Positions 3,328 to 4,713 of a stretch of 47,019 nucleotides of DNA are shown here, piece by piece. The position numbers were made by a program, and so were the translations under genes. Source of the stretch: Nanobdellati archaeon (GTDB taxonomy: Archaea; EX4484-52; WAPT01); NCBI GenBank assembly GCA_027038505.1, contig JALVWC010000014.1, positions 1 to 47,019 of the forward strand. The letters run 5' to 3'. Position 1 is the stretch's first letter, and each line of letters begins with the position of its first letter. The notes below the pieces were generated by a model. The model was not told the origin of the DNA and did no database searches. It worked only from the letters and a program-made list of their open reading frames with translations.

Positions 3328-3561
3328 CTATTCTTCGTCTATAATTTTTTTGATTTCCTCAAAAGAAAATATGTTTTTTAGCACATCGTGAATGTATTTG
3401 GAGTCCACGAGTTCCCTGAAAACTATGAGAACACTCTTTCTAATGTCCTCGTTATCAAGCTCATCAATTTCATAATCCTCAACATACTCGCTGTTCTTTA
3501 AAGCATTTTCAACATCTTCCTTTCTCGCATCTAGTATGATCTCAATCATCGACACGCGCAT
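3328..3561 (-). CDS. Small acidic hypothetical protein
   Basis: This is a 77-residue acidic protein with alternating hydrophobic and charged segments (EIDELDNEDIRK, FSFEEIKKIIDEE) and no cysteines or membrane segment. I do not recognise the family. It converges on the polymerase D small-subunit gene, leaving 14 bases between stops. A TATA-like AGTTTATAAAAG on the minus strand around 3583-3594 lies about 25 bp before the ATG at 3561, which suggests a leaderless transcript starting at MRVS rather than at the ATG four codons later. Confidence 0.6.
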   Translation of the reverse strand: MRVSMIEIILDARKEDVENALKNSEYVEDYEIDELDNEDIRKSVLIVFRELVDSKYIHDVLKNIFSFEEIKKIIDEE

Positions 3562-3644: not shown

Positions 3645-3666
3645 ACCGAAAAATTTATATATAAAT
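3645..3666 (+). promoter_or_regulatory. Strong BRE/TATA promoter for the 3.7-4.0 kb RNA candidate
   Basis: CCGAAAA (BRE-like) is followed directly by TTTATATATAAAT at about 3653-3665, one of the best TATA matches in the window. The expected transcription start about 25 bp downstream is near 3680-3690. No convincing protein start follows, which points to a stable RNA. Confidence 0.6.
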
Positions 3667-3679
3667 TAGTATAATATAT

Positions 3680-3973
3680 TAGGGTCAACCTTCTCCTTAC
3701 TAAAAAGAAATGAAAAATCGGGCTCGGACGGTGGGGGTTGCGTGCCTTCTTGCCTCCTCACCCCACCCTCCGATTAATTCCGTATTTTCCGGGAAGTTGA
3801 CAGGAGAAGCACATGACCCCGGTCGTCCACACCCCATCACACCAGAAGACAGATGGAATGCGGAGTCATCCCGGGATTATTCTGTGGAGCATCCCGGAAT
3901 AATGTACATAAATTTGGCTACCCACTTACAGAACTTCCATGGATTTAGATGAGTGTGGGTAGCCGCCATTTTT
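3680..3973 (+). ncRNA. Unassigned GC-rich structured RNA candidate
   Basis: A roughly 290-base GC-rich island lies between AT-rich flanks and downstream of a strong BRE/TATA element. Several helices can be drawn directly: 3724-3736 with 3761-3773 (13 bp, one C-C mismatch); 3780-3786 with 3857-3863, enclosing 3789-3793 with 3818-3822; 3871-3877 with 3891-3897; and a perfect 10-bp stem 3916-3925 with 3955-3964, followed by a T-run at 3969-3973 that could terminate transcription. Length suits an SRP or RNase P RNA, but I do not find the SRP helix 8 signature or the RNase P CR-I/CR-V order, so I leave it unassigned. The minus strand also has TATA-like sequences around 4008-4044, so orientation is not certain. 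Confidence 0.5.
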
Positions 3974-4053
3974 AACAACCTCGTCGCAGAATATTAGTTC
4001 GTTTTTCTTTATAAATTTTATCCAAAAACTTTTTAAATACGTTCGGCAACCGC

Positions 4054-4713
4054 CTAAACGCTTGATTTGAGCTCCAACAACTCTCTTCTGAGCTTTGCGA
4101 GCTCGGTTAGATATTCCCTTTCCCTAGATATTCGAGACACTTTTCTTACTTCTGTTGTGGATTCCCCGCTTTCCACACTCTTTTTTACCTTCCCGCTTTT
4201 TTCTTGCTTTTTGCTCACAATTCCTTCGGTACGGGGTGTGGCTTCGGCCTTCTCCACGCTCTTTGCTTCGTCTGGAATGGTTGGAGTGCTGCTCTTTATC
4301 ACCTCATCCACAAGCTTGTCGATGGCAAGAAGCATCTCATTAACCATGGCTTCGGTTCTATTCAATCTTTCGTGGTTGTTCAGCACAACTCTACCAAGGA
4401 TGCTTATATTATCTGCTATCTTTTCAAGTGAAGCAACTCGTTGCTCTAACAGACTAAGCGAGGATGCGAAGCTATTGGTGTTGGGACCTGATGCCTTGCT
4501 GGAGGATTTCAGTTCATTAACAACAGATGCAATTCCATCTATATCCGTGTGAAGTTGGTGAAGGTAAGTGTAAATTTTCTGGAACTCATCTTGGATGTAC
4601 GAGCTAAGTTGGTTGTAGCTGCTTTCGAGTCCGAGAACACGTTTCTTTATCTCTTCAATTTCGTTGGTCGGTTTTTTTTCTTTCTTTTTTCCAAAAAGAA
4701 AATCTAACACCAT
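4054..4713 (-). CDS. Coiled-coil hypothetical protein
   Basis: With the ATG at 4713 (MVLDFLFGKKKEKK) this encodes 219 residues. A basic N-terminus is followed by heptad-like repeats (IEEIKKRVLGLESSYNQL and LSLLEQRVASLEKIADNI) suggesting a long coiled coil to about residue 140. A low-complexity Ser/Lys/Glu linker follows, then a final helix ending LRRELLELKSSV. There is no membrane segment and I do not recognise a family. An upstream TTG start would extend it to 4770 into the opposite promoter. A TATA-like element at about 4738-4746 is about 27 bp from the ATG at 4713 and supports that start. It is divergent from the polymerase D large-subunit gene, so a role near replication is possible but unproven. 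Confidence 0.65.
   Translation of the reverse strand: MVLDFLFGKKKEKKPTNEIEEIKKRVLGLESSYNQLSSYIQDEFQKIYTYLHQLHTDIDGIASVVNELKSSSKASGPNTNSFASSLSLLEQRVASLEKIADNISILGRVVLNNHERLNRTEAMVNEMLLAIDKLVDEVIKSSTPTIPDEAKSVEKAEATPRTEGIVSKKQEKSGKVKKSVESGESTTEVRKVSRISREREYLTELAKLRRELLELKSSV

Follow-up and report, generated by a model that had tools for sequence, protein, structure and literature searches.

The stretch of DNA analysed here (the window, 47,019 nucleotides from a Nanobdellati archaeon) carries, between the genes of its two DNA polymerase D (PolD) subunits, a GC-rich locus named W. The reading that we favour, judging from sequence comparison, is that W belongs to a new, order-restricted family of structured RNA genes, and that this copy is promoted both ways and is antisense to a sister locus, P. 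The locus would probably give rise to a family RNA of about 270 nt, transcribed from the minus strand (3982 to 3713), and to an antisense transcript of the plus strand starting at about 3683; the opposing promoters are the least certain part of the case. Homologous loci are found in the window genus and, within its DPANN order, in two other families, with conserved neighbourhoods and no more than three copies per genome, and the family is, as far as searched, restricted to this order. The features of a stand-alone non-coding RNA gene are present, i.e., an own promoter, a covarying structure and homologs, and at W opposing conserved promoters are accompanied by complementarity, as in an antisense pair.

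Composition and fold of the W locus

A first, sequence-only reading had described about 290 bp of unusually GC-rich sequence, and indeed positions 3682-3968 have a GC content of 0.51, a value matched by only 1.5% of the 287-nt stretches of the window, while the flanks are at 0.175 and 0.31. The stem of 13 bp with one mismatch (3724-3736/3761-3773) and the perfect stem of 10 bp (3916-3925/3955-3964) that it had drawn are both confirmed, the latter being followed on the plus strand, after the last hairpin, by a T-run (3969-3973), a possible end of a plus-strand transcript, which is one T shorter in the same-genus genome G002 and absent in the other, G001. When compared with dinucleotide shuffles, the plus strand folds with z = –2.24 (3 of 200 shuffles equally good) and the minus strand with z = –4.56 (none of 200).

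The location between the PolD subunit genes holds as well, but two other genes lie there too (gene names, apart from TYW3, radical SAM, TctA and PolD, are by-eye readings of the sequences). The minus-strand RNA has as its 5' neighbour a coiled-coil gene (4054-4713, minus strand), syntenic in family f6, and as its 3' neighbour an ORF of 77 aa (3328-3561, minus strand) without a match in Pfam and with its own TATA box just upstream of the ATG. This ORF is a conserved neighbour of the RNA in f1 and f6, and adjoins DP1 also in f3 genomes in which the RNA was not detected. A further ORF inside the RNA (3710-3952) was rejected as a gene, having no ATG in G001 and out-of-frame indels, so that it is not conserved.

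The predicted family RNA of W type (3713-3982, minus strand) is delimited on the basis of TATA spacing, homologs and fold, with its 5' end at 3982 and its 3' end within the T-run at 3717-3713 (GATTTTT). Four hairpins are predicted along it, all on the minus strand. H1 (3916-3964) is formed by the perfect 10-bp stem 3955-3964/3916-3925, which is kept in G001 and G002; H2 (3866-3902) by a 12-bp helix (3891-3902/3866-3877) in which UUAUUCCGGGAU is paired with AUCCCGGGAUGA and which holds the motif CGGGAUGA, present also in the P type; H3 (3826-3864) by a 13-bp helix (3852-3864/3826-3838) with three G-U pairs; and H4 (3724-3773), the hairpin common to the whole family, by the pairings 3769-3773/3724-3728 and 3761-3767/3730-3736, separated by one G.G mismatch. 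The 3' tail, GCCCGATTTTT (3713-3723, minus strand), after which a second T-run is found (3706-3702), is kept in the six copies of the genus (in the W copy of G001 the last T is a C), and its GCCC(A/G)A part is kept across the order.

The arms CCGGG/CCCGG and ATTATT/AATAAT, interleaved at the locus and previously regarded as possibly forming either two exclusive folds or a pseudoknot, do exist. A pseudoknot is unlikely because the linkers between the two helices would be of zero length; in addition, the ATTATT/AATAAT pairing decays in G001. The other arm still pairs there, being CCGGGAU/AUCCCGG in the window genome (G000) and CCCGGAU/AUCCGGG in G001, so that, allowing for a shift by one base, G-C has turned into C-G.

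Copies of the family and covariation of the common hairpin

All three genomes of the genus examined carry two copies each, W and P. The W locus is found at the same place in G002 (88% identity) and G001 (72%), and the P locus of G002 is flanked by the TYW3 gene and a radical SAM gene. The two loci differ over much of their length; what they have in common is AAAAATCGGGCTCGGACGGTGGGGG, unchanged apart from the first base in the W copy of G001, most of the other strand of its stem and, reading the plus strand, CGGTCGWCC and TCATCCC. On the plus strand of W, the block GAAAAATCGGGCTCGGACGGTGGGGG (3712-3737) is identical in P. A palindromic TATA-like sequence, TTTTTAAAA, lies between the P RNA and the radical SAM gene in L006 (1595-1610) and could serve both directions.

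Three models were used to search for further copies. The first (R1), based on the plus strand, matched the genus only, a weak match in G012 being due to chance, as it lies inside a coding gene. The second (R2), built on the common hairpin as it reads on the window's minus strand, gave weak matches in G007 and G032 on the same strand, between the coiled-coil gene and the 77-aa ORF and with the PolD genes outside; through it a syntenic W copy was found in family f6, while an isolated, weak match in another lineage (G355) was discarded as chance. The third (R3), built from 12 sequences, gave 25 matches in the orientation proper to the family; they fall in 16 of the order's 34 genomes, and about 360 genomes outside the order had none. 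A scan of the DP1 locus yielded further f6 genomes and, together with R3, extended the family to all f6 genera and to f2. A third type, T, is found near the TBP gene in g9, and W, P and T occur all together in G023. P-type loci of f1 and f6 have TYW3 and Lrp-like neighbours in common, and f2 genomes (L095, L096, L097) carry one copy directly upstream of an MBF1-like zinc-ribbon gene; the G003 copy lies near TBP. We make no claim of universality in the order, because no copy was detected in f3, f4, f5 and f7 and many of the family members found belong to incomplete genomes. No copy came up in a pattern scan of viral contigs; the loci lie at fixed syntenic places, and among the neighbours listed no TnpB/IscB-type nuclease gene was recognised by eye.

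In nearly every member a long hairpin is predicted, followed by GCCC(A/G)A, and its loop holds a smaller one of 4-5 bp in the majority of P, T and f2 copies. Covariation in related genomes, proposed earlier as a check on the RNA gene, is evident here: in 19 members, 9 of the 16 pairs of the common hairpin have changed on both sides. Double-sided changes amount to 36 cells, against 12.2 ± 2.9 when the partners are shuffled (0 of 500), and the covariation score of the hairpin is 0.366, whereas slid controls stay at or below 0.145. These pair counts come from hand alignments of related, and hence non-independent, sequences, in which N stands for the loops and a few insertions had been removed manually; a covariance-model realignment, in which antisense matches were mixed in, was left out. 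The 5' domains are instead specific to the paralog and differ by type. In the f2 copies an apparent textbook K-turn, AGGG-GAU-GA-UGAGC/GCUCA-GA-CCCU, can be read from the sequence; P copies retain its GGGAUGA part, and W copies are without it.

Opposing promoters and the strand of the W copy

The textbook BRE/TATA element described originally is borne out: CCGAAAAATTTATATATAAA (3646-3665, plus strand), with a predicted start of the opposing transcript at about 3682-3688, is conserved in both same-genus genomes. Positions 3645-3712 are 97% identical between G000 and G002, the BRE/TATA within them being kept in G001, and the element with the next 30 nt is the best-conserved stretch of the W locus. 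Although placed past the 3' end of the minus-strand RNA, 3645-3712 outdoes the neighbouring genes in conservation, for which an opposing promoter is so far the sole explanation.

On the other strand, the TATA box TTTATAAA (4008-4015, minus) is placed so as to give a predicted start at 3982, with the same 25-nt spacing by which the RNase P, SRP and 5S genes of the window genome follow their TTTAAA-like TATA boxes, and it is kept in G000, G002 and G001 although the surrounding stretch is only 60% identical between G000 and G002. Moreover, H3 pairs fully only on the minus strand, where G-U pairs are formed at positions that on the plus strand are A.C mismatches. Contrary to the minus direction, the W hairpin of G002 has two A.C mismatches on the minus strand, which are G-U on the plus.

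Taken together, promoter spacing, convergent 3' ends and G-U bias assign the sister types P, T and f2 to the direction of the window's minus strand. By the rule of TATA plus 25 nt, P copies start at GTRGATGG, and in g11 a conserved hairpin marks the start of the T copies, 25 nt past TTTATAA; several T copies, and also the P copy of G023, have 3' ends that abut convergent genes; and in the sense strand of P, T and f2 hairpins G-U is far commoner than A.C among irregularities. The W-type hairpins of f6 point the other way. A conserved promoter lies on their plus-equivalent side, 24-27 nt before a conserved TTCTGG, and of the two sides only this one is well supported, whereas in the window genus both are conserved; in g9 the other side of the hairpin is coding to within a few bases. 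At the few irregular pairs of f6 W hairpins the sense strand has A.C and the antisense strand accordingly G-U, a difference from the P, T and f2 hairpins with a Fisher p of 0.004 on hand-tallied, non-independent counts. Since these f6 promoters added support for the plus strand to that for the minus strand, W is regarded as promoted from both sides.

Of the original proposal, a strong promoter feeding a structured RNA of unknown type, the RNA locus and the plus-strand promoter hold, while the single-strand reading is not supported in that form. The strongest competitor, which we nonetheless consider unlikely, is precisely a single plus-strand RNA of unknown type, from 3683 to about 3973, with accidental minus-strand signals: the high conservation around the BRE/TATA, the plus-equivalent promoter being the only well conserved one at f6 W hairpins and the coding sequence on the other side in g9 would all fit it. 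Against it stand the equally placed minus-strand promoter, at the right distance in all three genomes, the better fold of that strand, the G-U pairs that complete H3 only there, the loss in G001 of the plus-strand T-run and the minus-equivalent direction of the homologous P and T genes, which argue for the RNA promoted both ways.

The predicted plus-strand transcript of W could pair without a mismatch with the P RNA's 3' end over 26 nt in G000 and G002 and over 24 nt in G001. The longest uninterrupted duplexes between f6 W transcripts and their targets, G-U pairs included, measure 19-27 nt; same-genome duplexes are no stronger than cross-genome ones, and co-evolution of the pairing is consequently not demonstrated. 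Common descent combined with opposite reading would suffice to explain the complementarity, which may just be a side effect of homology.

Other explanations and possible role of the family

Among the explanations that do without a family RNA gene, one invokes a conserved inverted repeat that works at the level of DNA or transcription, e.g., a bidirectional terminator between converging genes; it would account for the long GC-rich palindromes with T-runs and for the several copies adjoining convergent genes. We hold it improbable, as the upstream promoters at fixed spacing, the conserved 5' domains away from the palindrome, the compensatory changes and the G-U bias pointing to one RNA strand all argue against it. 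Marginally less probable still is that the RNA acts in cis, as leader or attenuator, on the gene that follows it (77-aa ORF, radical SAM or zinc-ribbon): a same-strand gene does lie downstream of the RNA in f1 and f2, close by in the case of the MBF1-like zinc-ribbon gene of f2, but the downstream genes vary and in f1 have their own promoters. What disfavours it are the convergent copies, namely the T copies of g9 and g11 and the P copy of G023, all facing genes that run towards them; the 77-aa ORF also lies inverted in g11.

The failure to match the locus to known RNAs was confirmed, no Rfam family reaching the gathering score and nothing being credible at E ≤ 10. Likewise, nothing credible was obtained at E ≤ 10 for the P copies, and only tRNAs at E ≤ 2 for the f2 and f6 copies. 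RNase P RNA (RF00373; G000:C29:9226-9543, found also in G001) and SRP RNA (RF01857; G000:C13:87828-88103), both without a match in the window, and 5S rRNA (RF00001; G000:C13:117666-117782) lie elsewhere. A P copy resembling 5S rRNA (UCAUCCC..GUUAUGCCC) lost this likeness on the Rfam search. By eye, no ACA after a stem and no guide-flanking pair of C/D boxes were seen, and only short, scattered matches came from a duplex search against rRNA, SRP RNA and RNase P RNA, with no convincing conserved complementarity to rRNA. K-turns occur in C/D, H/ACA and RNase P RNAs. A highly diverged RNase P, SRP, 5S, H/ACA or C/D guide RNA, which an archaeal cell needs and which the K-turn read in f2 copies might recall, is on these grounds the least probable of all the alternatives, the first three being found elsewhere and neither a credible Rfam match nor convincing conserved rRNA complementarity being obtained. 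With the K-turn RNAs bound by archaeal L7Ae the family shares the K-turn-like element in the 5' domain of f2 copies and, less clearly, of f6 P copies; it differs from them in having no C/D pair, ACA box or conserved rRNA complementarity, and in the W type no K-turn.

To our knowledge, few non-coding RNA classes have been described in DPANN archaea beyond the universal ones, and a family like the present one is absent from Rfam 15. That genomes so small retain a structured RNA in two or three copies makes it likely that the RNA matters to the cell. The family resembles the lineage-restricted candidates of Weinberg et al. 2010 (PMC2864571) in being intergenic, structured, covarying, probably trans-acting and of narrow range, and is set apart from them by the lack of an Rfam 15 match, by having up to three paralogs per genome and by the opposing promoters of one type.

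As for the mechanism, the family RNA might be a trans-acting scaffold for an RNA-protein complex. Its common module, for protein binding or for the 3' end, would then consist of the 3' hairpin and tail, and the 5' domain would be the paralog-specific part. In the W copy the two promoters would yield the family RNA from the minus strand and the antisense transcript from the plus strand, and the latter, through 26 nt of pairing to the P RNA's 3' end, could regulate P. A tentative scenario, to which we give rather less than even credence, is that a duplicated copy of the RNA gene gained a promoter on the opposite strand and became a trans antisense regulator of its sisters, with the f6 copy having shrunk to an antisense hairpin and that of the window genus still being transcribed in both directions. 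Such a strand switch, if true, would show a duplicated RNA gene turning into an antisense controller of its sister. Plasmid RNAI/RNAII is an RNA/antisense-RNA pair with opposing promoters and long perfect complementarity, and the W family is alike in its opposing promoters and in the long perfect complementarity between two structured RNAs; unlike in RNAI/RNAII, the sister RNA is encoded elsewhere (in trans), the antisense derives from a duplicated gene and no plasmid context was seen.

One match of the duplex search found at the same place in both genomes was set aside, as it corresponds to the acceptor stem of tRNA-His. This tRNA gene (anticodon GTG; L034 1062-1167, on G000:C29 upstream of the 16S rRNA gene) has a short insertion interrupting the T-loop, which is also present in L035 with a sequence that differs between the two genomes, and which is probably an intron at an unusual place.
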